Below, one piece after another: positions 1-46,971 of a stretch of 64,000 nucleotides of DNA (position 1 is the first letter of the stretch; every line of letters starts with the position of its first letter). The stretch covers positions 1 through 64,000 of the forward strand of contig JAPPNF010000025.1 of assembly GCA_028818755.1 (NCBI GenBank), written 5' to 3'. The notes beneath the pieces are model-generated. The model searched no databases. It was given only the letters and a program-made list of their open reading frames with translations, and was not told where the DNA came from. This DNA comes from Deltaproteobacteria bacterium. Lineage in GTDB: Bacteria > Desulfobacterota > Binatia > UBA9968 > JAJDTQ01. Both the position numbers and the translations under genes were made by a program.

Positions 1-42
1 GCAATGTAAACCATTGGCATAGAGTGCTTTACAAGAGAATAT

Positions 43-2637
43 ATGGTTCCGGCGGAACTTGGCGACCTCTCCAGCTTGAAGGACTTGGTGATCAGCACCA
101 ATGAGCTCACCGGCTCCATACCGCCCGAACTCGGGAAGCTGTCGGCGCTGGAGGGCATGTTCCTTATGCGAAACAACCTCACTGGCCCCATTCCTCCGGA
201 ACTCGGCAATCTCTCGAACCTGGAGACGCTGTGGCTCTTCCGGAACGAACTTTCGGGGACCATCCCCGCCGAACTCGGCAATCTCTCCGCCCTGGAGGAC
301 CTGAACCTGGGCGACAATCAATTCACGGGCTCCATACCACCTGAACTGGGGCAGCTTACGTCACTCGAGGAACTGGGCGCCAGGAGCAACAAGCTCAGCG
401 GCTCCATCCCGCCCGAACTCGGTCGGCTCGCCTCGCTTACCGACCTGTCCTTCAGCAGCAACGACCTCTCGGGCCAGCTCCCGCCCGAACTCGGCAACCT
501 TGCCAGTCTGGAGAGCCTTGAAGTCCACAACAACCCCGATCTCGTGGGCCTGATGCCCAGGACCATGCTGAATCTGCCCCTCGGCTACCTCGACATTTCC
601 GATACGTGGATATGCCCCCACCTCGACGACGAGTTCCAGGGGTGGCTGGACGGCATCCCGCGGGCGTACGGCCTGCAGTGTCCGCCCACCCTGACCGAAC
701 GTTTCGCGCTCTCCGAACTCTACGCCGCGGCCGGGGGGGACTCCTGGAACAGCAACGGCGGCTGGGAAGCCGACTCCCTGGTGAGCAACTGGCACGGCGT
801 GACCGTGAATAGCACGGATACGCTGGTACGGAGGCTCGTGCTCCCCAACAACGGACTGCGCGGATCGCTTGCTTCCGCAATCGGCAACCTGACGAAGCTG
901 GAGACCCTGGACATCGCCAACAACAGCCTCTCAGGAGGGATCCCGGTCGCCGTCACCTCCATGGACGCGCTGGACACGATCCGGATCGCCGGCAACACGG
1001 ACATGGACGGGCCACTTCCCTTCCAGATGTCCGACATGACAGGGCTGAAGGCACTGTACTACGCAGGCACGGGCATGTGTGCGTCGCCATCGAAGACATT
1101 CCGGGCCTGGTTCGATGGGCTTGACCAGGCGGACGGAGCAATCTGCAACAACCCGGAAGCGGTCACTCTGTCGCTGCCGATCGTGTACCTGACGCAGGCC
1201 ATCCAGCGGCCGGCGGGCGATGTTCCGCTCCTTTCCGGCCGGGAGGCGCTGCTGCGGGCGTTCCTGGTAAGTGATCAGACGAACGCCTTCTTCGAGCCCG
1301 AGGTCGTTGCAACCCTCACGAGGGACGGCGAGGAGGTCCACCGCGTGGTCATGCGGACGGAAGACGACCGCCTGAGCACCGCCGCGGACGAGGGCGTCCT
1401 CGGCACCTCGTACAATGCCGTGATACCCGCCGAACACATCGTCGCGGGCACCGAGCTGGTTGTGATGGCCGACCCCGCGGAGACCGTGCCGCGTGCGACC
1501 GGCAGCCGGACGCGTTTCCCCGAAACCGGCACAATGCCACTCAACGTGATCGACGTGCCGCCATTCAAGCTGACGGTGGTGCCGGTGCTCAATGCCGCGA
1601 ACCCCGACTCGTCGATATTCGCGTGGACGGACAGCATCGCCGACGACAGCCCCCAGGTGGGCCTGTTCAGGTATTCGTTCCCGTTCGCGGAGTTCAGCGC
1701 GACGACGCGGGACAGCTACGTCACCTCCCTCGACCTCACCGACGAGGACAACACCTGGCCGTTGGTCCTCGAGTTGGAAGTGGTGTACCAGGCCGACGAG
1801 GCCACGGGCTACTGGTATGCCGTGGCGGACAGCGACGAGGGATACGTGCGCGGGATCGCGCGGCTGAACGGATGGGTGAGCTTCGGGAAGCCGTGGGACA
1901 CCGAACTCGCCCACGAAGTAGGCCACACCCTGGACCTCAAGCACGCGCCCTGTGGCGGCGCCCTCGGGGTCGAACCCGACTTCCCCTATTCGAACGGGAG
2001 CATCGGCATGTGGGGCTACGACTTCCGCGACGGGTCGGTGGTATCCCCGAACAGCCGCCGCGACATCATGGGATACTGCTACGAGAAGGGCTGGCTGAGC
2101 GACTACTACTACGAGAAGGTCATCCGGGTCCGCGAAGAGAAGGAAGGGAGCGGGGCGCGGGCGCTGCTGGCGGGCGCCGGACAGAAGTCGCAGATGCTGG
2201 TGTTGTGGGGCGGCGTCCTCGGAGATGAACTTCGCATCGAGCCAGTGCACTCCATGCATACGACCGCGAAGCTTCCGGACGAGCCCGGGCCCTATCGTCT
2301 GGAGGGAGTCACCGACGAGGGCGGCATCGAGTTTTCCCTGTCCTTCACTCCGGGCGAGGACCAGTACGGCAACAAGTACTTCTTCTTCACCATTCCCATC
2401 GAGGACGACTGGGCGGGCTCGCTGGAGCGGATCGTGCTCACCGGCCCCGAGGGCGAGGTGACGGTGGACGACACCGACCCACGGTCGATCTCGGTCTTCA
2501 CCGACCCTGCCACCGGTCGAATCCGGTCGATCCTGCGGGACTGGGAGGGGCCGCAGGTAGCCGCTATGGGCGCCACCGACCAGCTGCAGGTCGTGACGAC
2601 GCGGGGAATCCGGCAGGCCGTGACCCTGCGGCGTTAG
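43..2637 (+). CDS. Leucine-rich-repeat protein with zincin metallopeptidase domain (5'-truncated?)
   Basis: The N-terminal 200 residues are about seven plant-type 24-residue leucine-rich repeats with the pattern LxxLxxLxLxxNxLxGxIPxELG. A second LRR block with its N-cap (motif GDSWNSNGGW) follows at about residues 230-350. The C-terminal half carries a zincin site, HEVGHTLDLKH, at residues 624-634, followed by APCGG as in M66-like peptidases. I infer a secreted or surface zinc protease with a binding domain. The start is odd: there is no signal peptide or first N-cap, the protein opens inside an LRR, and an in-frame stop at 7-9 closes the frame. The 42 bases before the ATG are AT-rich compared with the gene. 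A 5' truncation or domain loss is likely. The peptidase call rests on the zinc motif; substrate is unknown. Confidence 0.8.
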   Translation: MVPAELGDLSSLKDLVISTNELTGSIPPELGKLSALEGMFLMRNNLTGPIPPELGNLSNLETLWLFRNELSGTIPAELGNLSALEDLNLGDNQFTGSIPPELGQLTSLEELGARSNKLSGSIPPELGRLASLTDLSFSSNDLSGQLPPELGNLASLESLEVHNNPDLVGLMPRTMLNLPLGYLDISDTWICPHLDDEFQGWLDGIPRAYGLQCPPTLTERFALSELYAAAGGDSWNSNGGWEADSLVSNWHGVTVNSTDTLVRRLVLPNNGLRGSLASAIGNLTKLETLDIANNSLSGGIPVAVTSMDALDTIRIAGNTDMDGPLPFQMSDMTGLKALYYAGTGMCASPSKTFRAWFDGLDQADGAICNNPEAVTLSLPIVYLTQAIQRPAGDVPLLSGREALLRAFLVSDQTNAFFEPEVVATLTRDGEEVHRVVMRTEDDRLSTAADEGVLGTSYNAVIPAEHIVAGTELVVMADPAETVPRATGSRTRFPETGTMPLNVIDVPPFKLTVVPVLNAANPDSSIFAWTDSIADDSPQVGLFRYSFPFAEFSATTRDSYVTSLDLTDEDNTWPLVLELEVVYQADEATGYWYAVADSDEGYVRGIARLNGWVSFGKPWDTELAHEVGHTLDLKHAPCGGALGVEPDFPYSNGSIGMWGYDFRDGSVVSPNSRRDIMGYCYEKGWLSDYYYEKVIRVREEKEGSGARALLAGAGQKSQMLVLWGGVLGDELRIEPVHSMHTTAKLPDEPGPYRLEGVTDEGGIEFSLSFTPGEDQYGNKYFFFTIPIEDDWAGSLERIVLTGPEGEVTVDDTDPRSISVFTDPATGRIRSILRDWEGPQVAAMGATDQLQVVTTRGIRQAVTLRR

Positions 2638-2655
2638 ACTGGTACAGGCCCAATC

Positions 2656-3309
2656 ATGCCCACACTCGCCGAAACCCTCGACCGCATCCGCGACGCAGGC
2701 GCAGCCAAGCGGGATCCTGCGGTGACCGCCGTACTCCGGAGCTGCACGGCCGACCTCGCCGCATCCGGCATCATGGACGGCATCGTGAAGGCCGGGGACC
2801 GCGCGCCGCTCTTCGCGCGCCCCAATCTCGAACACAGAACGGTTCGTCTCGCCCGCCTGCTGGCGGACGGCCCTGTGGTCCTCTCCTTCTTTCGCGGACG
2901 GTGGTGACCGTACTGCCGCGCTGAGCAGGCTGCTCTTCAGTCCCTGTACCCGGAGATCCGCGTCCGCGGTGCCGGCCTGGTCACCATTTCGCCCCAGCTT
3001 CACGAATATGCTTCGTCTTGGGCGAGAAAGGACGGCATCGAGTTCGACGTGCTCACCGACCTTGGCAACGGGGTGGCCAGATCCTACGGACTGACGTTCC
3101 GTTTCCCCGAACGGCTCCAGGATGCGTACCGCAACGACCTGCGGATCGACCTGAGTCGCTTCAACGGCGATCCCTCGTGGGAGCTCGCCGTCCCGGCCAC
3201 CTATGTCGTGGGCGGCGACGGGATCGTAGCCTATGCCGACGCCGACCCCGACTACACGCGCAGGCCGGAACCGACGGAACTGCTGCCGGTGCTGGAAGGT
3301 CTGGGCTGA
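2656..3309 (+). CDS. Peroxiredoxin-like selenoprotein (AhpC/TSA family), UGA = Sec at residue 84
   Basis: The ATG at 2656 opens a frame stopped by TGA at 2905-2907, but the same frame continues with clear family sequence to the TAG/TGA at 3307-3309 (217 residues if read through). The interrupted motif reads FFRGRW-(UGA)-PYC; in this peroxiredoxin-like family it is FYRGxWCPYC, so UGA replaces the peroxidatic cysteine of a CxxC-like pair. Downstream sequence (TISPQ, VLTDLGN, PATYVV, LLPVLEGLG) is typical of the family. A 5-bp hairpin with a GGC loop lies 20 bases after the UGA. Prx-like selenoproteins are known in bacteria. It begins 18 bases after the LRR protease gene. Alternatives are a sequencing error or a decaying gene; the uninterrupted frame and conserved residues on both sides argue against them. 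Confidence 0.82.
2921..2940 (+). promoter_or_regulatory. Candidate bacterial SECIS hairpin in prx-like gene
   Basis: GAGCA (2923-2927) pairs with TGCTC (2931-2935) around a GGC loop; flanking CT and AG can extend the stem across a bulge. The loop starts 20 bases after the TGA at 2905-2907 and begins with G. Both properties fit the published bSECIS model (loop about 16-37 bases downstream, G among the first loop bases). The fold was found by eye, not computed. Confidence 0.6.
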
Positions 3310-3328
3310 AGGGATTCCGGGCGGCGTC

Positions 3329-4510
3329 TCAATTCCCCCGTTCGAGGCGCCAGACATCCACATGATCCAGGTCGACGCTATCCCGGCGGATCGTAAGCAG
3401 GTAGTCCGGACCGAACGCCGGAACGACGTGTTCCTCGCGGCGCGGCGGAGCGGGAACACTGCCGAGCAATCTGCCCTCGGTGTCGAACACCTCCCAGCGG
3501 TTGCCCGCCGCCCGCACGACTTCGACCCACAACTTGCCGTCCGGAGCGACGAAGAGGTCCTCGATGAACGGTCTCGCGTCCGGCCGGGCGGGGTTGCGTG
3601 GGTCGCATGACGCGTCGCTGCGGGTCTCTCGCCACTCGTAGTATTCCGCGTTCGCCGCCCTCCACTCGGCGGTGCTGAACGATTCGGCCGGCAGCGGGCG
3701 CTCGATCACCATGAGAACCTCCGCGCCGTCGTTCCGCGTGACGAAGATCCGGTAGGCGCTGTTGAGTGCCGAATACAGCACGCCGCCCGGCCCCGGATGC
3801 TGCAGGAACCGCGGAGCGAACGGAATCGGGAAGAACCTGATGCGATCCTCGAACTCGCACACGATCGCCGGACGACCGATCGGCGGCGCCCGCATCCATG
3901 CCACGGTATCGCCCGTCTCGCCGCGGCTGTCATGACCCACATAGAACCGCTGCAGATCGGGGCCGAGGAGGGCGAACTGGAACACCTCGTCCGGGCCGAC
4001 GCCGTACAGCCGGAGCCAGGCAGGGACGCCGGTGACGCCTGCCCGAGTGGTCCGTTGCCCCAGCCATTCGCCCTCTGCCGACCATTCGCCGATGCGCCCC
4101 AGGTCCGGATCGAAGGTCAGGAGCCGGTCCCCTGCCCACGCCACCGCATTGAGGCTGTTGAATTCGCCCGGGCCTTCACCCTCCCTGCCGAACGTGCGAT
4201 GGTGGGCGCCGTCGAGCCCGAACACTTTTACCTCATGGTTGAGGTCATCGGCCACGAAGAGTTCCTCGTTCGGCCCCAGTGCCAGGCTGCTCACGCGGCC
4301 GAATTCGTCGGGCGATCCCGTGTCGGTAAGGGTCTTCGGTCCGATCGAGACGACGAGTTCGAGGCGGGCCGGAGGAGGATCCGTGTTGGTGACGGGGATA
4401 ACGCCCTCGTAGTTGATGACGAAGTCGGCGGTGGGTGCGTCGTCGCGGGCGCACGCGGCGGCGAGAACGGGCATCGTGAGTGCGAGCCAGCGGAACGAGG
4501 CGTGGCGCAT
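3329..4510 (-). CDS. 6-bladed beta-propeller lipoprotein
   Basis: The protein has a short signal peptide ending in a lipobox-like AAAC, then NHL/propeller blades with the recurring GxGPGEF motif (REGEGPGEF) and blade segments such as [14 protein letters not shown] and [11 protein letters not shown]. The start at 4510 is preferred because a GGAG site lies 6 bases upstream and the signal peptide begins there; a longer frame reaches 4573. The likely location is the periplasm or outer membrane. No catalytic residues are visible and the ligand is unknown. It is divergent from the next propeller gene, with about 170 bases between the two starts, so regulation may be shared. Confidence 0.82.
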
Positions 4511-4683
4511 GCGGGACTCCGTTTCAACAGGCAAGACAAAGCAGCGGGCATTGGCAATGGCAATTCGCACCATGCTCTCGATACCCTTACGTCAATCCGA
4601 ATCGGGCAGTTTCCTGGGGGCCGGAGCGAGACAACGCCGAGAGGATCAACCGGAGTCGTAATGGGCATGAACGGGAGGGACGA

Positions 4684-5985
4684 ATGCACAGGTTTCTGAT
4701 CGCTGGGGCCGCGTTGTACCTTGCGGGCCTGCTCGGCGCGCCCGTCGCCGCCCAGGAGCTGGTCGAGTTGCCCGCGGAAGACCGCTCGCTCGACCCCGCT
4801 TTCGAGGAGGTGTTCCGGGTTGGTGGGATCGACGGGGAGCCCTGGGAGCAGTTCGGAAGGATCCACGATATCGCCTTCGATCGCGCCGGCAATCTGTACC
4901 TGCTCGACTTCGACGGGTTGGAGGTGGTGGTCGTCGACCGTGAGGGCAGCTTCGTGCGGACGATCGGGCGTTCCGGCGACGGTCCCGGCGAGTTCGATTT
5001 CCCGCGGTGGCTGGCGGTCATGGAGGACGGGCGCATCGTCGTGAGCGATGTCCCGCGGCACCGCGCGTTCCAGATCTACAACAGCGACGGCAGCTTCGAC
5101 CGGGGCGTGCGGGTGGGGAATGACCTGCTGGCGGTCGCGGACCGCATCCACGGTGGTCGCGATGGCGTTGTCCTCACGGGAGTCGGGCTGGCACGAATCG
5201 AGGAGACGATACCGGAGGACGAAAGGGACCCTCCCGGAAAGCGCCGTATCCTGCACGCTGCCCTGGACGGCGACGAAGTGGCCCTCGAGACGGTCTTCCA
5301 GGCCTGGAGCCTGCCGCCTGTCGGCGAACTCACGCTCCGCATCGGTGGGCGCGAGATACCCATGGGTGGTGTCACGCCTCCGCCGCGCACCTTCGGTCCA
5401 CCCCTGATCGTCGGCACCCTGCCCGAAGGGGGCTTGGCATTCTCGGATTCGTCGGCGTACGCGATCAAGATCCTGGACGCCAACGGCACGCTCGTCCGCA
5501 TCCTCTCGCGTCCCATGCATCCCGTCCCCGTGACCGACCGGATCGTGGAGGCCGAATTCGAGCGGCGGGTCGAGGAGGCGATCGCGGGATTCGAGGCCAG
5601 GGGGCACGGGAACCGCATGATCCAGAACGCCACTACGGGTGAGACGATGGTGGGATCGCTGGACCTGGACGAGAGAATGCGCGAAGGCGTCCGGTTGTCG
5701 ACACTGGCGCAATTGGAAGCGGTCCCGGTGGCTGACGAGGTCCCGGTGGTGCTGGATCTGCGCACGACCTGGGACGGACGAATCTGGGTGCAGCGGCGCG
5801 GCGAGGACCTCTTCAGCGACGGCCCCATCGATGTACTGAGCCCTGACGGCCGCTACCTGGGTAGCTATCCCGCCGGAACACCCATGCCGATGGCCTTCGG
5901 TCCAAGGGGACTGATGGCGACGCTGCAGACGGATGAACTGGGGATGCAGACGGTGGTCGTAAAGCGGGTGGGCGGGGGGCTGTAG
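4684..5985 (+). CDS. 6-bladed beta-propeller secreted protein
   Basis: A Sec signal peptide is present (hydrophobic core, cleavage near GAPVAAQE), with no lipobox cysteine, so the product is probably free in the periplasm or exported. Propeller blades follow, including [30 protein letters not shown] and [12 protein letters not shown]. The ATG at 4684 has a GGGAGGGA ribosome site just upstream; the frame is open further 5' but that part does not look coding. About 433 residues. It is paralogous to the neighbouring gene at 3329-4510 and to three other propellers in the window. A role in binding or sensing is inferred only. Confidence 0.83.
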
Positions 5986-6100
5986 GGGACGCGGTCACTC
6001 CCCGAGCAGGGATCCGAGCAGAACGCCCCCGAGGCCAGCAGCATACACGGGGGCGCTGCTCTTCGGCCTCATGGGAGCCTTGTCTGACTCACGCTACGTG

Positions 6101-7180
6101 TCAGCGTCGCCGCAACCATTGTGGAATCGTCTGAACCAGGACCTTGGGATAGGGATCGCGAACGAAACTGTAGAGCCGGTGGTGCGCAAATGCTGAAGCA
6201 ACTGCCTCCGATGGGATCGGAGACGACTGTTCGCCCGACCCCGAGTCGAGTACGTAGATATTGAGACGCCCCTCCAGGTCCTCCATTGATGATCCGTGTA
6301 TCGTGGCAACGATCTGTCCGGGTCCTCCACCTGACAAGTGCGAGAGCGTGTTGGCAACGCCAGTTGCTGAGTCTACTCCCATTGACAGGCCACCGCCAGG
6401 ATTTGGCGTCCACGTGACGGGGCTGAATCCGTTGATCGTTACCTCACGAATGAAGTCGCCTTGTGTAGAAAACCAGCGCACGATGCCCAGACGTTCGCTG
6501 GCAATCGCGAGGACATCCCCTCCTGCGCAGTGGACATGGCCCCGTCCATGACTGGAGGCAAAGAAAACTGCGAACCTCTCCAGGCCACGAGGAGGCAGCT
6601 GGCGCGGAAAACCTGGTCCAAACGACCGAATCACCTCGCCCTCCTCTGACAGGATGTAGACCTTGGGTGTGCCATCCGACACCTGGCCCAGCACAACGAG
6701 GCGACCGTCGATAACGCACATGTCGCTGCCGTAGACTGGAACCGGAAAGCTGCGAACGAACTCCAAGCCTTCATCGCCCAGCACGAACTCTGCGATCTTT
6801 CGGGAGGCTGCATCTAAAACGTAAACCTGACCCGCTGGGCTAACGGCCAAACCCGCGGCGGCTCGAAACTCGCCGGGGCCGCCACCCTGACGTCCGGTCG
6901 TGCCGCGAAAGCGCCCGTCCGGCCCAAACCAGGACAGACTGAAGCCCTGATCGTCAAGAATCAGGATGTTCCCATCCCCATCCACCTCGACATCGCGGAT
7001 GTTTCCGAATATCTGGTTCCGGTCTCCTGCAATGACCCCGATCTCCAACAGCAACGTGTCGCGCTGGAACTCTACGGAAACAGGTCCGCGGACGACTGGA
7101 CCGGTTAGTGGATCGCCACTGTTCCAACCCAACAAGTTCCCCAAAAGCAACGGAGCGACGCGAACGATTTGGGGTGTCAT
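6101..7180 (-). CDS. 6-bladed beta-propeller protein with divergent base composition
   Basis: About 359 residues with propeller blades: VEVDGDGNILILDDQG, RQGGGPGEFRAAAG and LAVSPAGQVYVLDAAS. The N-terminus is weakly hydrophobic and has no clear signal peptide or lipobox, unlike the other four propellers here. Its codons are visibly less GC-biased than those of flanking genes. It lies directly past the 3' end of the tRNA array, on the same strand as the tRNAs. Composition and position together suggest horizontal acquisition at a tRNA site, but no integrase is present. The start at 7180 is the first in frame and is uncertain. Confidence 0.7.
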   Translation of the reverse strand: MTPQIVRVAPLLLGNLLGWNSGDPLTGPVVRGPVSVEFQRDTLLLEIGVIAGDRNQIFGNIRDVEVDGDGNILILDDQGFSLSWFGPDGRFRGTTGRQGGGPGEFRAAAGLAVSPAGQVYVLDAASRKIAEFVLGDEGLEFVRSFPVPVYGSDMCVIDGRLVVLGQVSDGTPKVYILSEEGEVIRSFGPGFPRQLPPRGLERFAVFFASSHGRGHVHCAGGDVLAIASERLGIVRWFSTQGDFIREVTINGFSPVTWTPNPGGGLSMGVDSATGVANTLSHLSGGGPGQIVATIHGSSMEDLEGRLNIYVLDSGSGEQSSPIPSEAVASAFAHHRLYSFVRDPYPKVLVQTIPQWLRRR

Positions 7181-7216
7181 ATACGGTTCAAGAGTAGGCT
7201 ACGGTGAGTCCAAGAG

Positions 7217-7330
7217 CGGACGGGGTGGGATGGACCTGCGGACGGCTCCGCCGCTCCTCGGTAGTCTCTGGCGCCCGCGCCTGCCGGCGCGGCCGCCTCC
7301 GGCTCGACACCGTTCGAATCCCCTCCCGTC
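7217..7330. repeat. Structured tRNA-Ser-associated element, copy 1
   Basis: A 114-base unit lies just past the 3' end of tRNA-Ser(GGA). Its first 15 bases (7217-7231) are identical to 7347-7361, the acceptor and T-stem of that tRNA. Its far end (7313-7330) is complementary to the first, giving a roughly 13-bp terminal helix on the plus strand. The core is about 85% identical to copy 2 at 7689-7803. It holds a 7-bp hairpin (7275-7292) with one pair that is C-G here and T-A in copy 2. There is no tRNA T-arm or anticodon arm of its own. Function is unknown. Confidence 0.6.
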
Positions 7331-7346
7331 AGTTCACTGACGTTCA

Positions 7347-7430
7347 CGGACGGGGTGGGATTCGAACCCACGCGGGCTGACGCCCACACGATTTCCAGTC
7401 GTGCGCCTTAAGCCACTCGGCCACCCGTCC
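7347..7430 (-). tRNA. tRNA-Ser(GGA)
   Basis: The minus strand folds as a cloverleaf with acceptor GGACGGG/CCCGTCC, a long class II variable arm, T-loop TTCGAAT and anticodon loop CTGGAAA. CCA is not encoded. It is the last tRNA of the array in the direction of transcription. Confidence 0.92.
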
Positions 7431-7477
7431 TGTCGCGAAGAGCGGGGCCCTCCGACCCCGCTCCTCACGGTTGATAA

Positions 7478-7551
7478 TCGGGGCGCCCGGATTCGAACCG
7501 GGGACCTCTGCGACCCGAACGCAGCGCTCTACCGGACTGAGCCACGCCCCG
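7478..7551 (-). tRNA. tRNA-Pro(CGG)
   Basis: Acceptor CGGGGCG/CGCCCCG, with the C1-G72 pair usual for bacterial proline tRNA; anticodon loop TTCGGGT; discriminator A. Confidence 0.92.
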
Positions 7552-7569
7552 TTGTTGAGATTTGTTGAG

Positions 7570-7654
7570 CGGAGGCGGAGGGACTCGAACCCCCAAGTGC
7601 TCAACGCACGCCGCATTTCGAGTGCGGTGCCTTACCAATTAGGACTACGCCTCC
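7570..7654 (-). tRNA. tRNA-Ser(CGA)
   Basis: Class II tRNA with long variable arm, acceptor GGAGGCG/CGCCTCC, anticodon loop CTCGAAA and discriminator G. Confidence 0.92.
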
Positions 7655-7688
7655 CCAAGGGTCGTCGGAGCGAGTGTGCCGCACTTTG

Positions 7689-7803
7689 AGGGGGAGTGGG
7701 ATGGACCTGCGGGCGGCTTGGGCCGCTCCTCGGTAGTCTCCGGCGTTCGCGCCTCGCGGCGCGACCGCCTCCGGCTCGAACGAGTTCGAACCCCATTCCC
7801 TCC
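7689..7803. repeat. Structured tRNA-Ser-associated element, copy 2
   Basis: A 115-base unit just past the 3' end of tRNA-Ser(GCU). Bases 7692-7702 match 7824-7834, the acceptor/T-stem part of that tRNA, so each copy mimics its own neighbouring tRNA. Plus-strand ends GGGAGTGGG (7692-7700) and CCCATTCCC (7792-7800) pair completely if one G-U is allowed. The inner 7-bp hairpin is at 7747-7764. The core matches copy 1 at 7217-7330. Confidence 0.6.
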
Positions 7804-7819
7804 GATCGCTGACGCTCAG

Positions 7820-7904
7820 CGGAGGGAGTGGGATTCGAACCCACGTGGTCACTGGGACCAACGCCTTAGCAGGGCGCCGCTTTTAGCCGCTCAGCCATCC
7901 CTCC
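7820..7904 (-). tRNA. tRNA-Ser(GCU)
   Basis: Class II tRNA with acceptor GGAGGGA/TCCCTCC, long variable arm, anticodon loop CTGCTAA and discriminator G. Confidence 0.92.
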
Positions 7905-7907
7905 AAG

Positions 7908-7980
7908 TAGCCCCGCCTGGGATCGAACCAGGACTCTTCTGATCCAGAGTCAGACGTGTTGCCAATTACACCACGGGGCT
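7908..7980 (-). tRNA. tRNA-Gln(CUG)
   Basis: Acceptor AGCCCCG/CGGGGCT, anticodon stem TCTGA/TCAGA and loop CTCTGGA, giving anticodon CUG; discriminator A. It sits only three bases from tRNA-Ser(GCU). Confidence 0.9.
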
Positions 7981-8026
7981 ATGTGCCGCCTTCCTCACGG
8001 CCAACCCTGACGTTACGTCAGGCTAG

Positions 8027-8099
8027 AGCCACCGGTCGGACTCGAACCGACGACCCCGTCATTACGAGTGACGTGCTCTACCAGCTGAGCTACGGTGGC
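8027..8099 (-). tRNA. tRNA-Thr(CGU)
   Basis: Acceptor GCCACCG/CGGTGGC, anticodon stem CGTCA/TGACG, loop CTCGTAA and T-loop TTCGAGT. Confidence 0.92.
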
Positions 8100-8160
8100 G
8101 ATGTTTCCGGCGGGCGGCAAGCAGACGGCCCGACGGCCCGCCTCGTCGTCGCCTCGCCAG

Positions 8161-8233
8161 TGGAGCCGAGGGGAGTCGAACCCCTGACCTCAGCGTTGCG
8201 AACGCTGCGCTCTCCCAACTGAGCTACGGCCCC
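8161..8233 (-). tRNA. tRNA-Ala(CGC)
   Basis: Acceptor GGGGCCG/CGGCTCC contains the G3-U70 wobble that identifies alanine tRNAs. Anticodon loop TTCGCAA; discriminator A. Confidence 0.93.
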
Positions 8234-8264
8234 TTGCTCGCGCGGGATTCCCACGGCCTGCCAG

Positions 8265-8338
8265 TGGGCGCGACAGGACTTGAACCTGTGACCTCCACGA
8301 TGTCAACGTGGCACTCTAGCCAGCTGAGCTACGCGCCC
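8265..8338 (-). tRNA. tRNA-Val(GAC)
   Basis: Acceptor GGGCGCG/CGCGCCC, anticodon stem CCACG/CGTGG, loop TTGACAT and T-loop TTCAAGT. Confidence 0.92.
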
Positions 8339-8346
8339 TGCACCAA

Positions 8347-8420
8347 TACGCCCGGGAGGACTCGAACCCCCAACCCCCTGATCCGTAGTCAGGTACTCTA
8401 TCCAATTGAGCTACGGGCGC
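8347..8420 (-). tRNA. tRNA-Arg(ACG)
   Basis: Acceptor GCGCCCG/CGGGCGT (G1-U72 wobble), anticodon stem CCTGA/TCAGG and loop CTACGGA. A34 would need TadA deamination to inosine to read CGN codons. Confidence 0.92.
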
Positions 8421-8447
8421 TCCGCGAGACGAGGCTCGCCGCTGCAG

Positions 8448-8531
8448 TGCCCACGACAGGACTCGAACCTGTACGTCCTTTCGAACACTGGTCCCTCAAA
8501 CCAGCCTGTCTACCAATTCCAGCACGTGGGC
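8448..8531 (-). tRNA. tRNA-Leu(GAG)
   Basis: Class II tRNA with acceptor GCCCACG/CGTGGGC, long variable arm, anticodon loop TTGAGGG and discriminator A. Confidence 0.92.
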
Positions 8532-8621
8532 ATCCCCACCGGTCCGCGGCACGGCCGCCGCCCGCACACTCGGGGAGGCCACCGCGCCACGTTCCCGGCC
8601 TGAACTGCCAGGCCAGGCCAA

Positions 8622-8706
8622 TGCTCGGGGAGGGACTCGAACCCTCACGGGGTTAACCCCCACAGGATCCTGAATCCTGCGCGTCTACCAATTCCGCCAC
8701 CCGAGC
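8622..8706 (-). tRNA. tRNA-Leu(CAG)
   Basis: Class II tRNA with acceptor GCTCGGG/CCCGAGC, long variable arm, anticodon loop TTCAGGA and discriminator A. Confidence 0.92.
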
Positions 8707-8730
8707 CTTTCGGCACATCGATTCGGTGAA

Positions 8731-8803
8731 TGGAGCCGAGGGGAGTCGAACCCCTGACCTCCTGAATGCCATTCAGGCGCTCTCCCAACTGAGCTACGGC
8801 CCC
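8731..8803 (-). tRNA. tRNA-Ala(GGC)
   Basis: Acceptor with G3-U70, anticodon loop ATGGCAT. The acceptor and T-arm are identical to those of tRNA-Ala(CGC) in the same array, so the two probably arose by duplication. Confidence 0.93.
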
Positions 8804-8842
8804 AAACCCGCTCCACGACCCAGATTTTCAAAAAACCACCAG

Positions 8843-8917
8843 CGGGGCTGACGGGACTCGAACCCGCGGCCTCCGGTGTGACAGACCGGCACTCTAACCA
8901 AACTGAGCTACAGCCCC
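8843..8917 (-). tRNA. tRNA-Asp(GUC)
   Basis: Acceptor GGGGCTG/CAGCCCC, anticodon stem CCGGT/ACCGG, loop CTGTCAC and discriminator G. Confidence 0.92.
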
Positions 8918-8954
8918 ATTTTTCCACTGCGGCCGGCAGCCCGCGCCGGCCCAA

Positions 8955-9026
8955 TACCCTCACGGGGAATCGAACCCCGATCTCCACCTTGAAAGAGTGG
9001 TGTCCTAACCGTTAGACGATGAGGGC
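8955..9026 (-). tRNA. tRNA-Glu(UUC)
   Basis: Acceptor GCCCTCA/TGAGGGT (G1-U72), anticodon loop CTTTCAA and the typical glutamate D-arm start TCGTCTAA. Confidence 0.9.
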
Positions 9027-9041
9027 GAACCTCCGTCGCTA

Positions 9042-9115
9042 CAGGCCCGGAGGGACTCGAACCCCCAACCGCCGGTTTTGGAGACCGGTGCTCTACCAAA
9101 TTGAGCTACGGACCT
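9042..9115 (-). tRNA. tRNA-Trp(CCA)
   Basis: Acceptor AGGTCCG/CGGGCCT, anticodon stem CCGGT/ACCGG, loop CTCCAAA and discriminator G. Confidence 0.92.
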
Positions 9116-9126
9116 AGCGCTGTCGA

Positions 9127-9199
9127 TGGCCAGGGGCGGAATCGAACCGCCGACACCGCGATTTTCAGTCGCGTGCTCTACCAACTGAGCTACCTGGCC
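9127..9199 (-). tRNA. tRNA-Phe(GAA)
   Basis: Acceptor GGCCAGG/CCTGGCC, anticodon stem CGCGA/TCGCG, loop CTGAAAA and discriminator A. Confidence 0.93.
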
Positions 9200-9220
9200 G
9201 AAGCCCGACATCGCTCCGAC

Positions 9221-9269
9221 AAAAACCGACCGGACCCTGCCGGCGGGTTCGCCTTGAACCACCGGTCGG
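9221..9269 (-). terminator. Hairpin plus T-run between tRNA-fMet and tRNA-Phe
   Basis: On the minus strand CCGACCGG (9269-9262) pairs with CCGGTCGG (9233-9226) and is followed by TTTTTG. A smaller hairpin, GGTTC/GAACC, sits in the loop. This looks like a rho-independent terminator or attenuator after tRNA-fMet. The rest of the 9200-9358 gap has another 8-bp GC hairpin at 9313-9334 but no gene. Confidence 0.5.
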
Positions 9270-9358
9270 CCTGGCCGATCCAAGTCCCGGTACCCCGGGC
9301 CGCTACGCCAGAAACGCCGCACTGAGGCGGCGTTCCCGGAAGCACTCCGTCGCAATTA

Positions 9359-9432
<74 letters not shown>

Positions 9433-9468
9433 GTGAGATCTTTAAGTTATGGAATCTCGTAATAGGGG

Positions 9469-10470
9469 TCAACGGCGCTGCGCTCCGCGGATCTCCAGCC
9501 GTCTGCAGTACCACGCGATCCAGCGGTTCGAGAAGCCCCACACCTTCGCCCGGCGGGTAATGGTCTCGACTTCGCGGCGTGACATCTTGGTTTCCCGCTT
9601 CAGCACCTTCGGGTTGGCGCGACTGATCGCCAGGGTGCGAACTGCGAAGAGCAGCGGGAGCAGACAGAAGAGCCGCACCCGATGATGCAGGCGGGGGATC
9701 AGGCGGATGTATGCGCGGGCCGCCGCCAGATGGCGATCCGCCTTGCGCACGAGCCGGTCCAGCACCGCCATGGCAGCCTTCCGGTTGGCGGGATCGAAGA
9801 GCTCGCCGGGGCGGATGCGGGGATCCGGCAGGAAAGCGGCCGGAACGTACACCCAGCCGCGATCGCGGTCCTCGTGCAGACCCCTGATGACGTTGACCGT
9901 CTGCAGGGCCAGGCCGAACTCGCGCCCGAGTTCCATCATGCGCGCCCGCTCGCCCCGCAGCCGGAGGCGGAGGGAGAAGAGTTCGGTGAGCAGGTATCCC
10001 ACCCTCCCGGCCACCTCGTGCATGTAGTCGTCGAGATCCGCCTCGTTCTGGAAGACCGATCCCCTCTCGGTCCAGCGTGCCATCCCCGCGCTCGACTCCC
10101 GAACCCGCCTCACGAGGACATCGCGCGCCTCGGGCGCCAGGCTGTCCAGTCCGTCGAGAACGGTGGTGGCGTGCCGCGCGACAAGAGCGTCGGGTGTTGC
10201 CTCGCGCGCTTCCTGGAGTCGTGCGGCGAGAGCAGCCCGGTCACCCCGTCCCTCGAGCACGCTCCGCCATTCCTTCAGCAGGCCGATCTTCTCGTCGTTC
10301 CCGAGTTCCTGGTTGTCCTCCAGATAGTCCGACACGCGGAGAAGGAGGTAGGCGACGGTGATTTCTTCCCGAAGGGGTACGGGAAGCAGGTCGATGCCCA
10401 CCGCGAAGGTGCGGCTCGACTGTACCAGAAGCTCTTGAAGCGTGGCCACGCAAACAAATGTATCCCGCAT
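9469..10470 (-). CDS. Squalene/phytoene synthase family protein
   Basis: About 333 residues of the head-to-head trans-prenyl synthase fold. The first aspartate-rich region reads LLLRVSDYLED and the second NVIRGLHEDRDRGWVYVP; both are characteristic of enzymes condensing two farnesyl or geranylgeranyl diphosphates for squalene, hopanoid or carotenoid synthesis. The start at 10470 gives the usual family N-terminus (LLVQSSRTFAVGIDLLP); the longer frame to 10647 overlaps the divergent pterin dehydratase control region. No other isoprenoid gene is nearby, so whether the product is squalene or phytoene cannot be decided. Confidence 0.85.
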   Translation of the reverse strand: MRDTFVCVATLQELLVQSSRTFAVGIDLLPVPLREEITVAYLLLRVSDYLEDNQELGNDEKIGLLKEWRSVLEGRGDRAALAARLQEAREATPDALVARHATTVLDGLDSLAPEARDVLVRRVRESSAGMARWTERGSVFQNEADLDDYMHEVAGRVGYLLTELFSLRLRLRGERARMMELGREFGLALQTVNVIRGLHEDRDRGWVYVPAAFLPDPRIRPGELFDPANRKAAMAVLDRLVRKADRHLAAARAYIRLIPRLHHRVRLFCLLPLLFAVRTLAISRANPKVLKRETKMSRREVETITRRAKVWGFSNRWIAWYCRRLEIRGAQRR

Positions 10471-10561
10471 CGTGCGACCGTCCAACCATGGCGTTAGGTT
10501 AGTAGTCGAAGTGGGACAGGGGTTGGGGCGTCCAGAGGCCGTGAACCACCCGTGGGGACCG

Positions 10562-10852
10562 ATGGCAGATAAGCTCTCGCGGAGCCAGATCGAGGAATGG
10601 ATCGCCGCGCATTCCAGGTGGAAGTTCAGGGACAACGCGATACGCAAGCACTACATGTTCCCCTCGTTCCGTAGCGCCATCGTGTTCGTCAACCGGGTCG
10701 CGACGATCGCTGACGAGGAAGGTCACCACCCGGATATCCAGATCCGGTACGACCGGGTGTCGCTCCACCTCTGGTCGCATGATGCCGGGGGCGTGACGGA
10801 GCGGGATCTCAAGCTGGCGGAGCGAATCGACTTCGCAACTTCGGCCCGTTAG
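10562..10852 (+). CDS. Pterin-4a-carbinolamine dehydratase
   Basis: A 96-residue protein with the family signature EGHHPDIQIRYDRVSLHLWSH followed by GGVTERDLKLAERID. It dehydrates 4a-hydroxytetrahydrobiopterin to recycle the pterin cofactor of aromatic amino acid hydroxylases and also occurs as a coactivator homologue. The ATG at 10562 gives the normal length. The stop is 12 bases before the TTG of the RND pump, suggesting co-transcription. No phenylalanine hydroxylase is in the window. Confidence 0.9.
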   Translation: MADKLSRSQIEEWIAAHSRWKFRDNAIRKHYMFPSFRSAIVFVNRVATIADEEGHHPDIQIRYDRVSLHLWSHDAGGVTERDLKLAERIDFATSAR

Positions 10853-10864
10853 AGGCGAAACCCC

Positions 10865-13800
10865 TTGGCTGACTCCGGGTCGCGCGCCGGCCAGGTGACG
10901 AGCGCCAACGGTCCGATAGGCTTCATGGCGAGGAATGGCGTCGCCGCCAATGTCCTCATGCTCTTCCTGCTTCTGGCCGGACTCGGGGCCGCGAGCAATC
11001 TGGTTCAGGAGGTCCTCCCCGACTTCTCCCTGGAACGGGTTCAGGTCGTAGTGCCGTACCCGGGGGCCGCTCCGCAGGAAGTGGAAGAGTCCATCGTTCG
11101 CCGGATCGAGGAGGAGATCCGTGCGGTGGACGGGCTGCAGCGCATCGAATCGACGGCTGCCGAAGGGCTCGGGACCGTCGTCGTTGAGTTCAGGTCGGGA
11201 ACCGACATCAATCGCGCCCTGAACGACGTCAAGGCCCAGGTCGACCGCATCCCGAGCTTTCCGGCCGGCGCCGAGCGCCCCGAGGTGCGCGAAATTACGA
11301 GCCGCCAGAGCGTCATCCGGCTCCTTGTGCACGGCGATGTCCCGGAACGCACGCTCAAGGAGCTGGCGTACGGTATCGAGGAGGGGATCTCCTCTCTCCC
11401 GGAAGTCTCCCTGGCCGAGACCAGCGGCGCGAGAATGTACGAGATCTCCATCGAGGTGCCGCTCAGGCACCTCAGGGCCCTCGGAATGACGCTGGACGAT
11501 GTCGCCTTCGCCGTGAGGCAGGGGTCTCTCGAACTGTCCGCCGGCATGGTATCGACCGCCAACGAGGAAGTCCTCATCAGGACGCTGGGACAGAACTACG
11601 ACCAGGCGGACTTCGAGGATATCGTCGTCCTGACGCGATCGGACGGCACGGCGGTTCGGCTGGGCGAAATCGCAACCGTACGGGACGGGTTCGCGGATTC
11701 GGATCTCAGCGTCCGCTACAACGGACAGCCGGCGGTTCGGGTGGACGTGTTTCGCACCTCGGAAGAACAGGTGCTGGATATCGCCCGGGTCGTGAACGAC
11801 TACCTGGAGGCAGAGGTCGTGCCGGCGCTTCCGGAAGGCACCGGAATCGCGATCTGGAAGGACGACTCGGAGGAAGTCGGGGGACGTCTCGGCCTCATGA
11901 TCGAGAACGCGCTGCTGGGGCTGGCGCTGGTGTTCCTCTGTCTGGCGCTCTTCCTGCAGATCCGGCTGGCCGTCTGGGTTGCCGTGGGGTTGGCGGTCGC
12001 GTTCACCGGGACGTTTCTGGTGATGGGACTGCTGGGCATCTCCATCAACATGTTCTCGCTGATGGCGCTCGTCCTTGCGCTGGGCATCGTCGTGGACGAC
12101 GCAATCGTGGTGGGCGAGAGCGTCTTCACCGAGCGGGAACGCGGTGCGCGGGGCGTCACGGCGGCAATCAGGGGTGCGCGCCTCGTCAGTGGCCCGGTCA
12201 TCTTCTCGGTTCTCACCACGATGACGGCGTTCGCGGCGCTGCTGCCGGCGCCGGGACCCCAGGGGAAGCTCGGCCGGAGCATCCCCATCGTGGTCATCGT
12301 GGTCCTCTTCCTCTCGCTGGTCGAGTCGCTGTTGGTGCTGCCGAACCACCTTTCGCACCTCAAGGACGCGACCGGGAACGCGCGCAACCGGCTGACCCGG
12401 CTTCTTCGCAGGGTTCAGCAGGGCACGGATGCCCTCCTCAAGCGGATAACCGACGGCCCGTTGGAGCGAGGCCTGCGGTTCGCGGTCGACCAGCCGCTGG
12501 TCGTGATGGCTTCCGCGACGGCACTGCTCGTCCTCTCCGGCGCCGTCGTGGCCTCGGGAATCGTGCCCAACCAGTTCCTCACGCCCATCGAGGGAGAGGT
12601 CGTCTCCGCCAACGTGGAGATGCCCGCGGGCACGCCTGGCGAACGGACGGCGGAGGTGCTCGGGGAACTCGAAGCCGCGGGGAGGCGGGCGGTCGGACGG
12701 CTGGAGGAAGACCAGGCTCGCGACGGGGGGCCCCTGCTATTCGATGTCGCGGTCACCGTGGGCGAGCCGGCCACGCTCTACGACCCGCTGGCCGGGGACG
12801 AAACCAGGGCGCCACGCGGTCACGTGGGAGCCGTGCAGTTCAAGTTGACGGGGTGGGAGGAACACGACATCGCCGCTTCGACCTTCGAGAGGGTGTGGCG
12901 CGAAGAAGCGGGCACGTTCCCCGGGGCCGAGTCGGTGTCGATTTCCTCGAACCTGCTCGGGCTGGGCCTGCCGGTCCACTTCGAGCTCTCGCATCCGGAC
13001 GCCGAGCGGCTGGCGGTGGTGGCCGACGCGTTCACCGTCGAGGTTGCCGCATTGGACGGCGTCTTCGATGTCCGGAACAACCTCGACAAGGGATACCGGG
13101 AGCTTCAGCTCGAGCTGGAGCCCGAAGCCCGCACGCTGAACCTGACCCTGGACAGCTTCGCCGGACAGGTGCGCTCCGCAGTCTTCGGATCGGAAGCCCT
13201 GAGGGTGCAGCGGGGCCGGGAAGACATGCGGGTGTACGTCCGACTTCCCGAGGACGAGCGCAACTCGCCGGCCGACATCGAACACTACCTCGTGCGAACT
13301 CCGGGCGGTGAGCTGCCCTTGGCCCAGGTGGCATCCGCACGGTTTGCCAGGTCGGCCGCCACCATACATCGGGTCGACGGCCGCCGGGCCGTTACGGTGA
13401 CCGCCGACATCGACCCTCGTCTCACATCCGCTGCTCAGGCCAACCGCAGTGTGGATGACGACCTGCTCCCGCGGCTCATGGACGAGCACCCGGGACTGGA
13501 ATACACCATCGGAGGCCTGCGCAAGGACCAGGAGCACGCGTATACCGTTCTGAGCCGATCGCTGTTCCTGGCGCTGCTCGTCATGTACGCGCTGATGGCG
13601 ATCCCCTTCGGTTCCTACTCGCAGCCGCTCATCGTCATGGCCGCCGTGCCGCTGGGAGCGGTCGGGGCCCTGGCCGGACACATGCTGCTGGGTCTCAGCT
13701 GGGGCCTCTGGTCGCTTTACGGACTGATCGGCGTCTTCGGCGTGGTCGTCAACGACTCGCTGATCATGATCAAGTCCATCAACGATCTGCGAGACTCCGG

Positions 13801-14065
13801 AATGTCACCGCGCGATGCGATCGTCGCCGGCGGCAAGGGCCGCTTTCGCCCCATCCTGCTGACCTCCCTGACGACGTTTCTGGGCGTGTCCCCGATCGTC
13901 TTCGAGAGCAGCACCTACGCGCAGCACCTGGTGCCTCTCGCGACTTCGGTCGGCTTCGGCGTACTGATCGCGACATTCCTCCTGATGGTGGTCGTGCCGG
14001 CGCTCGCGATGCTGAACTACAATGTCGCGGGGTGGATCGGCGAGCGGCGGGCGAGGGGCGCGTAG
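10865..14065 (+). CDS. RND-family efflux transporter permease (AcrB-like)
   Basis: 1066 residues, normal for inner-membrane RND pumps. TM1 is at about residues 25-45 (NVLMLFLLLAGLGAASNL), followed by a porter domain with VVPYPGAAPQEVEESIVRRIE, TM2-6 with the conserved TM4 motif GIVVDDAIVVGE at about 407-418, a second porter domain, and TM8-12 ending near MVVVPALAMLNYN. It exports drugs or lipophilic compounds by proton antiport. The start is a TTG preceded by GAGGCGA. Neither a membrane-fusion protein nor an outer-membrane channel gene adjoins it, so partners lie elsewhere. Confidence 0.92.
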   Translation: MADSGSRAGQVTSANGPIGFMARNGVAANVLMLFLLLAGLGAASNLVQEVLPDFSLERVQVVVPYPGAAPQEVEESIVRRIEEEIRAVDGLQRIESTAAEGLGTVVVEFRSGTDINRALNDVKAQVDRIPSFPAGAERPEVREITSRQSVIRLLVHGDVPERTLKELAYGIEEGISSLPEVSLAETSGARMYEISIEVPLRHLRALGMTLDDVAFAVRQGSLELSAGMVSTANEEVLIRTLGQNYDQADFEDIVVLTRSDGTAVRLGEIATVRDGFADSDLSVRYNGQPAVRVDVFRTSEEQVLDIARVVNDYLEAEVVPALPEGTGIAIWKDDSEEVGGRLGLMIENALLGLALVFLCLALFLQIRLAVWVAVGLAVAFTGTFLVMGLLGISINMFSLMALVLALGIVVDDAIVVGESVFTERERGARGVTAAIRGARLVSGPVIFSVLTTMTAFAALLPAPGPQGKLGRSIPIVVIVVLFLSLVESLLVLPNHLSHLKDATGNARNRLTRLLRRVQQGTDALLKRITDGPLERGLRFAVDQPLVVMASATALLVLSGAVVASGIVPNQFLTPIEGEVVSANVEMPAGTPGERTAEVLGELEAAGRRAVGRLEEDQARDGGPLLFDVAVTVGEPATLYDPLAGDETRAPRGHVGAVQFKLTGWEEHDIAASTFERVWREEAGTFPGAESVSISSNLLGLGLPVHFELSHPDAERLAVVADAFTVEVAALDGVFDVRNNLDKGYRELQLELEPEARTLNLTLDSFAGQVRSAVFGSEALRVQRGREDMRVYVRLPEDERNSPADIEHYLVRTPGGELPLAQVASARFARSAATIHRVDGRRAVTVTADIDPRLTSAAQANRSVDDDLLPRLMDEHPGLEYTIGGLRKDQEHAYTVLSRSLFLALLVMYALMAIPFGSYSQPLIVMAAVPLGAVGALAGHMLLGLSWGLWSLYGLIGVFGVVVNDSLIMIKSINDLRDSGMSPRDAIVAGGKGRFRPILLTSLTTFLGVSPIVFESSTYAQHLVPLATSVGFGVLIATFLLMVVVPALAMLNYNVAGWIGERRARGA

Positions 14066-14084
14066 CCGCGATAGGCGCCTCGTG

Positions 14085-14104
14085 GGGCGTCGTGACGCCC
14101 TTTT
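14085..14104 (+). terminator. Rho-independent terminator after RND pump
   Basis: GGGCGT (14085-14090), loop CGTG, ACGCCC (14095-14100), then TTTT. It lies between the convergent RND gene and the class III aminotransferase gene. Confidence 0.65.
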
Positions 14105-14113
14105 GCCGGACCT

Positions 14114-15463
14114 CTACCCGGGTGCCCCGGCCGCAATCGTGGATACGAGCACCTCGAGCCCCGCTTCGAGCTCCCTCTCGCCGATCGTGGCGGGCGGCGT
14201 CAGCTCGACCACCTCACCGCGGGATCCCGCGGGCAACACGATCAGTCCGCGGTCAAGCGCGCTCTTCGCCACGGCCACGGCGGGGCCCGTGTCGATGTCA
14301 CCCGTTTCCGCCGCAGACCGGGCCTCGGCCGCCCCGTCGGCGGCATCCGTATGCGCAGTCTCCTGCACGCGCAGCTCCACGCCGAGCATGAGCCCCCTTC
14401 CCCGCACCTCCCGCACTGCCTCGCGGCCCGCCAGCTTCGCCGTCAGGTAGTCGAGCGCGAAGGCGCCGAGTCGGCGCGCGCGCGCGGTCAGATCTTCCGC
14501 CCCCAGCGCCGCCAGGAATCCCAACCCCGCGGCGCAACCGAGGGGATGGCCCTGGAAGGTGCTGGTGTGCACAGCCTCGCCCGATGACGACGGCCACGCG
14601 TCCATGACCTCACGGGGTCCAGAGCAGGCCGACAGCGGCATGCCCCCGCCGAGGGCCTTGCCGAGGCACACCAGGTCGGGCACCACCCGGTCATGATCGC
14701 AAGCCAGGAGTTCGCCCGTCCGCCCCATACCGGTGAAGATCTCGTCGGCGATCAACAGGGCGCCTCCCGCGCGCGTGCGTTCCGCCAGCTGGGCAAGGAA
14801 TCGCGAGGGCGGGATGCGCACGCCCGCCCTTCCCTGGATCGGCTCCACGAGCACGGCCCCGACCGGGACCGCCGCGTCGCCGGAAAGCAGGGAGTCGATT
14901 TCCCTCAGCACACCCTCGGCCGCCCCGGCGGACGACGGGAATCGCACGAAGTGCACGTGATCGGCCAGGCGATTCGTAAACGGACGGCGAAAGTGCTCCC
15001 TGTGGGTCGTCGCCAGGGCTCCGAGCGTGAGGCCGTGGTAGCTGCCCTCGAATGCGATGATCCCGTGTCGGCCCGTGGCGAGCTGGGCGGTCTTGAGTGC
15101 GGCCTCCACGGCATCCGATCCGCTGAGACCCAGGACGGTCCGCGTTTCCGGCCAGGGCATCAGCGCGGCCAGCGCCTCGAGGAACTCCACCTTCACCGCC
15201 GGTGGGTGGATGTCGCCCATGCCGTGGACGAGTCGGCGGGCCTGGGCCGCGATCCGCTCGGCGATCAACGGATGGCGGTGCCCGGCCAGGGCCACGCCAA
15301 AGGCGCCGGTGAAGTCCAGGTACGTGTTGCCGGCGGCGTCCCGGACGGTTGCGCCCTCGGCGTCGGTCCAGAAAGGCGGCGGGGGCCGCAGGAAAGTGAC
15401 GTCTCTGGACTCGACCCCGCTCAGGCGCTCGGCCAGTTCCCGGTTTGCCGAGTCAGTGGGCAA
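14114..15463 (-). CDS. Class III PLP-dependent aminotransferase
   Basis: 449 residues of the ornithine/GABA aminotransferase fold: GLSGSDAVEAALKTA for phosphate binding, FEGSYHGLTLGAL, the DEIFTGMGRTG motif and PLP lysine in CLGKALGGGMPLSA. It transfers an amino group from an omega- or alpha-amino acid to a keto acid; the substrate cannot be assigned. The start appears to be TTG at 15463 and overlaps the antiporter stop by 11 bases, placing it last in the ligA operon-like run. The segment near residues 395-415 (rich in A, D, E) looks like an insertion. Confidence 0.88.
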   Translation of the reverse strand: MPTDSANRELAERLSGVESRDVTFLRPPPPFWTDAEGATVRDAAGNTYLDFTGAFGVALAGHRHPLIAERIAAQARRLVHGMGDIHPPAVKVEFLEALAALMPWPETRTVLGLSGSDAVEAALKTAQLATGRHGIIAFEGSYHGLTLGALATTHREHFRRPFTNRLADHVHFVRFPSSAGAAEGVLREIDSLLSGDAAVPVGAVLVEPIQGRAGVRIPPSRFLAQLAERTRAGGALLIADEIFTGMGRTGELLACDHDRVVPDLVCLGKALGGGMPLSACSGPREVMDAWPSSSGEAVHTSTFQGHPLGCAAGLGFLAALGAEDLTARARRLGAFALDYLTAKLAGREAVREVRGRGLMLGVELRVQETAHTDAADGAAEARSAAETGDIDTGPAVAVAKSALDRGLIVLPAGSRGEVVELTPPATIGERELEAGLEVLVSTIAAGAPG

Positions 15464-18202: not shown

Positions 18203-18208
18203 GGGCTG

Positions 18209-20398
<2,190 letters not shown>

Positions 20399-20426
20399 TC
20401 ACCGTTCACCCACAGGAGGTTCCCGG

Positions 20427-46917: not shown

Positions 46918-46971
46918 CGGTTACAAGCGCCCGTACAGCCAACGAGCCCAGTGACAGGACCCAGTACGAAA

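Follow-up and report, generated by a model that had tools for sequence, protein, structure and literature searches.

Does a gene that is cut in two by an in-frame TGA encode two fragments, or one protein in which the codon is read as selenocysteine (Sec)? The question is raised by a peroxiredoxin-like (Prx-like) gene in a 64,000-nucleotide stretch of DNA (hereafter the window; contig C134, positions 1-64000) from a Binatia-like metagenome-assembled genome (MAG), the host MAG. A single frame runs from the ATG at 2656 to a terminator TGA at 3307-3309, contains neither TAA nor TAG and has one internal stop, within VVLSFFRGRW-U84-PYC87-RAEQ (Table 1). This is the frame that a first-pass annotation had described, and reading through 2656-3309 confirmed it. 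A plain ORF call also reproduced the split which that annotation had foreseen, into a stub of 83 aa (2656-2907) and a tail of 86 aa (3049-3309). In a rough scan of the whole window, five TGA-split frames looked coding-like on both sides, and only the Prx gene is not accounted for by an overlapping or adjacent gene.

Table 1. Coordinates of the Prx-like gene and its elements in the window
Feature	Position	Strand	Basis
Prx-like (UxxC) selenoprotein gene, 217 aa if UGA is read as Sec	2656..3309	+	Frame, AhpC-TSA match, TGA in four Gemmatimonadota homologues
In-frame TGA, Sec84, opening residue of UxxC (U-P-Y-C)	2905..2907	+	Frame and homologue codon alignment
TGC, Cys87, closing residue of UxxC	2914..2916	+	Aligned with peroxiredoxins' peroxidatic Cys
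Putative bacterial SECIS apical hairpin GAGCA-GGC-TGCTC	2923..2935	+	5-bp stem, GGC triloop 2928-2930, 20 nt past UGA

When the TGA is read through, the protein matches Pfam AhpC-TSA (PF00578) over residues 47-193 with 87.9 bits (cut-off 26) and Redoxin with 58.9 bits, both alignments running across the TGA. Against NCBIfam there were nine matches with an E of 0.1 or better, all weak and all well short of their own cut-offs.

Homologues were sought at two distances. A protein search of 58 genomes (the host MAG and its relatives) found the gene in six of them: the window and five from other families of the same class. All five of these homologues (38-49% identical) have exactly one internal TGA, at the codon identical to the window's. 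A scan of named bacterial genomes confirmed 579 loci, and among the best 80 of these, codon 84 is TGC or TGT in 71, in agreement with the earlier statement that the family has cysteine here, and TGA in nine (four Gemmatimonadota, two Binatia, two Desulfoluna and one Geobacter); the nine of 80 is not a frequency, because it refers to the best 80 of 579 loci and one of the two search patterns demands Cys. The closest four among these 80 loci are all from Gemmatimonadota MAGs (L047-L050; 58-66% identical), namely isolate Ww581 (66%), Ca. Palauibacter rhopaloidicola (61%), Ca. P. denitrificans (59%) and isolate jk18x1bzbins.77 (58%), and in all four the window's TGA codon is also TGA. All evidence on the Prx selenoprotein comes from MAGs.

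In an 88-row tree, the window gene groups with the four Gemmatimonadota genes in a single clade (SH-aLRT 100), nearest to L047. Four switches between Sec and Cys are needed on this tree, at least three of them forced by well-supported branches, with the reservation that it is a “quick” tree with two long branches. L030 (from the host MAG's class) and L062 (a named Candidatus Binatia) have identical rows in it, so that the host MAG's class is probably Binatia. A separate alignment, A2, has 41 rows, made up of the window plus 40 loci hand-picked from the 80 for spread. None of the 41 pattern matches that were checked for relatives in viral contigs was one. No conserved neighbourhood was found between the window and the flanks of L048-L050, which have only the Prx gene in common with it, unless one counts a doubtful ORF that matches weakly; L047 lies on a short contig.

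The sequence on both flanks of the TGA is under purifying selection. In all ten pairs among the five Gemmatimonadota genes (the window's and L047-L050), dN is below dS on either side of the TGA (Nei-Gojobori). For example, dS/dN between the window and L047 is 1.54/0.36 upstream and 1.73/0.25 downstream.

These results bear directly on explanations that do not involve selenocysteine. If a Cys-type gene had lately been broken by a change from TGC/TGT to TGA, only the 83-aa stub would be translated; that would suit the commoner Cys state (71 of the best 80 of 579 loci) and the weakness of the window's own hairpin (see below), but the four closest genomes share the TGA codon at saturated synonymous distance (dS 1.2-1.7), downstream dN is well below dS although a decaying tail would not stay conserved, and the stub lacks most of the fold. 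An error of sequencing or assembly at 2905-2907 is conceivable in a MAG contig whose duplicate partner leaves the Prx gene uncovered, yet the identical TGA occurs in independent assemblies of four related organisms, and the base change would have to fall exactly on the redox residue. Given the relatives' TGA and dN below dS on both sides, we therefore regard a nonsense mutation as very unlikely and an error as more improbable still. Nor do we see more than a minute chance that the UGA yields a different residue, i.e., Trp by suppression or under a reassigned code: UGA readthrough does occur in bacteria, but among the best 80 of 579 loci the relatives have Cys rather than Trp, the window's tRNA array includes an ordinary tRNA-Trp with anticodon CCA, the Prx gene's own terminator is TGA, and TGA ends many ORFs in Palauibacter-type stretches.

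Selenocysteine insertion in bacteria is associated with a hairpin (bSECIS) downstream of the UGA, and the first-pass annotation had pointed to one with its loop at 2928-2930. It is present as claimed, with GAGCA (2923-2927) and TGCTC (2931-2935) enclosing the loop, which starts 20 nt past the TGA. The limits given for bSECIS elements in the available portion of PMC13188914 are a loop of 3-9 nt, a stem of at least 4 bp, a G among the first two bases of the loop, a distance of 16-37 nt from the UGA and an MFE of -7.5 kcal/mol or lower. The window's hairpin lies within the loop, stem, G and distance limits (GGC triloop, 5-bp stem, 20 nt). Against the energy limit, as that portion of the paper states it, the constrained values are -5.6 kcal/mol for the window's hairpin, -7.3 for L047 (borderline, p 0.12) and -14.7 to -16.1 for L048-L050 (8-bp stems, p 0.005 or less).

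Folding, which had been proposed as a check, gave a divided answer: the hairpin is there, but significance is not reached when it is tested by itself. Its synonymous-randomisation p is 0.14, and while the free MFE of a 45-nt segment is -9.2 kcal/mol with the hairpin included, folds of 41-71 nt in the window region were no better than shuffles. We therefore rejected thermodynamic folding of this region by itself as proof, and support for the window hairpin is comparative rather than drawn from its own sequence.

That comparison used one fixed hairpin definition for 88 family members. A score of at least 5 was reached by 15/15 TGA genes versus 9/73 Cys genes, and synonymous randomisation gave p ≤0.05 in 4/15 versus 1/73 (median p 0.07 versus 0.51); the TGA genes are kin to each other (e.g., L030/L062), so rank tests of TGA versus Cys genes overstate independence. 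Codons +6 to +10 are GAG CAG GYT GCT CTY across the five Gemmatimonadota genes. Sixty four-fold columns share a codon family across the five genes, five of them with an invariant third base. The only one of the 60 columns with T throughout is codon +9, a GCT in each of the five genes; GCT makes up 5.8% of the 1712 Ala codons in long ORFs of the window. In all five Gemmatimonadota, the stem-loop is maintained by codons ending in T, which are uncommon in these genes. In Desulfoluna genes of the same larger clade the loop offset is likewise 20, but the pair that closes the loop is U-A instead of A-U.

The first-pass annotation had also looked to the genome for selA, selB, selC and selD. All four are in the host MAG, with selA (identified by eye), selB and selD together on contig C9 and tRNA-Sec on C21 (73.1 bits). 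On C9 (locus L027, ~56.7-62 kb), selA-selB-selD are consecutive on one strand, and selD has its own in-frame TGA. Five further host-MAG loci with AhpC-TSA matches (L001, L002, L006, L007 and L008) each have one in-frame TGA at a redox motif (TPGU, TGGU, GUYNC, WUGKC and TUPPF); counting the window's gene, six of the ten PF00578 matches in the host MAG have one TGA, making it a selenoprotein-rich bin.

However, this machinery belongs to a different organism, so we rejected the host MAG's sel operon as proof. The window's SufB is 45-47% identical to SufB of all eight same-genus genomes searched and 46% identical to the host MAG's second, genus-like SufB on contig C116, but 89% identical to that of the Ww581 genome (G058) and 81% to those of the other three Gemmatimonadota. 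SufC and SufD agree, with 78% and 69% identity to G058 versus 56% and 35% to the host MAG's own proteins, and the host MAG's SelB is 65% identical to that of a same-order relative and 35% to Palauibacter SelB. Judged by these identities, the window contig is foreign to the host MAG: it is Palauibacter-like Gemmatimonadota DNA mis-binned in a Binatia-like MAG, and its source organism is a sponge-symbiont-like bacterium. The host MAG lists 5.57% contamination. Base composition and tetranucleotides were uninformative as a test of contig origin, with GC at 0.65-0.70 for window, host and Palauibacter-type stretches, and tetranucleotide correlations of the window at 0.71-0.72 for L027/L028 of the host and at 0.67-0.73 for loci of the Palauibacter type.

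Another contig of the same MAG, C141 (80000-94414 compared), is identical to window positions 7476-21631 (100% over 14,156 bases). It parts from the window at 7476, just past a tRNA-Pro gene, keeping a variant tRNA-Ser, so positions 1-7475, including the Prx gene, are without this cross-check; for them, the Prx clade itself points to a Gemmatimonadota origin. The junction lies at a tRNA array in which 17 genes occupy 2.1 kb (7347-9432, minus strand) and would reflect either duplicated assembly or a strain junction. Elsewhere in the window, 43-2637 encodes a protein with leucine-rich repeats that weakly matches metallopeptidase M66, and 3329-4573 (-), 4480-5985 (+) and 6101-7180 (-) have weak matches to 6-bladed beta-propeller/NHL families, the first two overlapping on opposite strands, so that one start is probably wrong. 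Another small thiol protein, of the disulphide isomerase family (PF06491, 197 bits, CGC motif), is encoded at 46951-47388.

The relevant machinery is that of the four Gemmatimonadota relatives. In their genomes, selA, selB, selD and tRNA-Sec each exceed the curated cut-off in 4/4 (selB as a partial match in G058), and each selD has its own in-frame TGA. In G059 and G061, selB and tRNA-Sec are ~5.3 kb apart on a single contig, and proteins neighbouring this region are common to G059, G060 and G061; this linkage and the common neighbours argue against random contamination in these three. The window's own (unbinned) organism would then be expected to have sel genes as well. We lean towards the view that Palauibacter-type Gemmatimonadota inherit Sec decoding as a trait, and that their Prx-like selenoproteins are a clade particular to the lineage, in which the redox pair has shifted to a thioredoxin-like UxxC on a peroxiredoxin scaffold.

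The TGA in relatives, the clade, the sel sets, selection on both sides and the hairpin in all five genes together make the gene a selenoprotein gene; almost certainly, the UGA at 2905-2907 places selenocysteine in the active site of this thioredoxin-fold redox enzyme. The central claim of the first-pass annotation, that a Prx-like selenoprotein has Sec in place of the family's Cys, has therefore held, given TGA in the four nearest relatives and Sec machinery in 4/4 of their genomes. A further part of it, that Sec lies at the peroxidatic cysteine, has not.

The AlphaFold2 model (pLDDT 96.7, pTM 0.92) has ~40 helical residues ahead of a peroxiredoxin-like part, which begins at about residue 42, and U84 directly precedes the helix of residues 85-103. 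Its top structural matches, at Z of about 21, are M. tuberculosis AhpE (Z 21.7, rmsd 1.4, 151 aligned) and BCP proteins, and ResA is among its Foldseek matches. In profile alignments to the chains 2ywn, 5epf and 2cx3, the FyRGgWCPYC of the family overlies FyPaafTqvC-type motifs of peroxiredoxins, with position 84 on Thr (Ser in 2cx3) and position 87 on what we take to be the peroxidatic Cys of a PxxxTxxC motif. R80-x-x-x-U84-x-x-C87 occupies the place of this motif with Thr and Pro absent, which sets the protein apart from classical (Sec-)peroxiredoxins, and U84-P-Y-C87 is a UxxC. When aligned to ResA (4nmu), the family motif lies over WCKPC, with Sec84 on the first Cys of CxxC. The alignments to both kinds of chain therefore position the selenium as in a thioredoxin-type couple and not as in Sec-peroxiredoxins (TxxU).

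Alternatively, the selenoprotein may be a genuine peroxidase whose peroxidatic residue is Sec. Since Sec attacks peroxides strongly as a nucleophile and the fold is closest to the AhpE/BCP peroxiredoxins, this deserves more consideration than the explanations without Sec. We nevertheless consider it unlikely, as both the peroxiredoxin and the ResA alignments place Sec84 elsewhere, and the known Sec-peroxiredoxins are TxxU in the parts of PMC13188914 and PMC1088965 at hand.

The explanation in which we have high confidence is a soluble Prx-like oxidoreductase with a UxxC couple, encoded on a mis-binned Palauibacter-like contig, in which UGA 84 is translated as Sec via SelB and Sec-tRNA, aided by the hairpin just downstream. 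The Sec84/Cys87 couple would sit where the active-site helix begins. Most likely, the selenolate of Sec84 would attack a disulfide or a peroxide, Cys87 would resolve the intermediate as a selenenyl-sulfide, and a thioredoxin-type donor would re-reduce the couple. The most likely action of the enzyme would be thiol:disulfide exchange started by Sec, or else the reduction of peroxides, in which Cys87 would close the selenenyl-sulfide.

Prx-like UxxC selenoproteins are already known as a kind, and the window gene is a real selenoprotein of that kind. Table 1 of PMC13188914, in the portion available, lists Prx-like thiol:disulfide oxidoreductase as a bacterial selenoprotein family (PF00578, UxxC/UxxU, representative WP_010940744.1). 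The same kind appears in excerpts of PMC1088965 as “Prx-like protein, UXXC”, with 22 sequences in the Sargasso Sea set, and in those of PMC2398784 as “Prx-like 1”, with 225 in GOS. In the portions of the literature examined, we found no description of the Gemmatimonadota Prx-like clade with its sel sets: “Gemmatimon-”/“Gemmatimonad-” is absent from the available main texts of PMC13188914, PMC2398784, PMC12013277, PMC5029168 and PMC9312934, and in the available text of the Palauibacter order paper (PMC10469786), selenium is unmentioned and “selen” occurs once, inside an author name. SelA/SelB are reported in sponge-symbiont bins of various phyla (PMC5649159, in part). The findings add to this kind a clade of Sec-containing Prx-like proteins, together with full selA/selB/selC/selD sets in Palauibacter-type Gemmatimonadota. 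The case also illustrates that ordinary annotation splits such selenoprotein genes, and that “genome has selB” can hold for the wrong organism within a MAG.

Compared with known systems, the protein shares superfamily and fold with Sec-containing peroxiredoxin (PrxU, TxxU; NCBIfam NF040737), but its Sec is three residues earlier, at the Thr position, and its score is 12.4 bits where the cut-off is 270. The SelL-related redox proteins (NF040769) are thioredoxin-fold Prx-like selenoprotein kin, to which the protein scores 23.3 bits (cut-off 120). The peroxiredoxin-like family protein cd02970 of the same Table 1 (PMC13188914, as available) is Prx-like AhpC/TSA by name, but has UxxS where the window's protein has UxxC. 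The closest likeness, by domain and motif, is to the Prx-like UxxC family as described in the sources seen in part, with a common AhpC/TSA domain and UxxC replacing TxxU; its Geobacter, Desulfoluna and Binatia members here carry FYRGxWUPYC. Within that family, the Gemmatimonadota proteins form their own clade, with FFRGRWUPYCR(A/E)EQ and a hairpin loop at offset 20 (GGC/GGT), whereas the Binatia loop is at 16 (AGTT).
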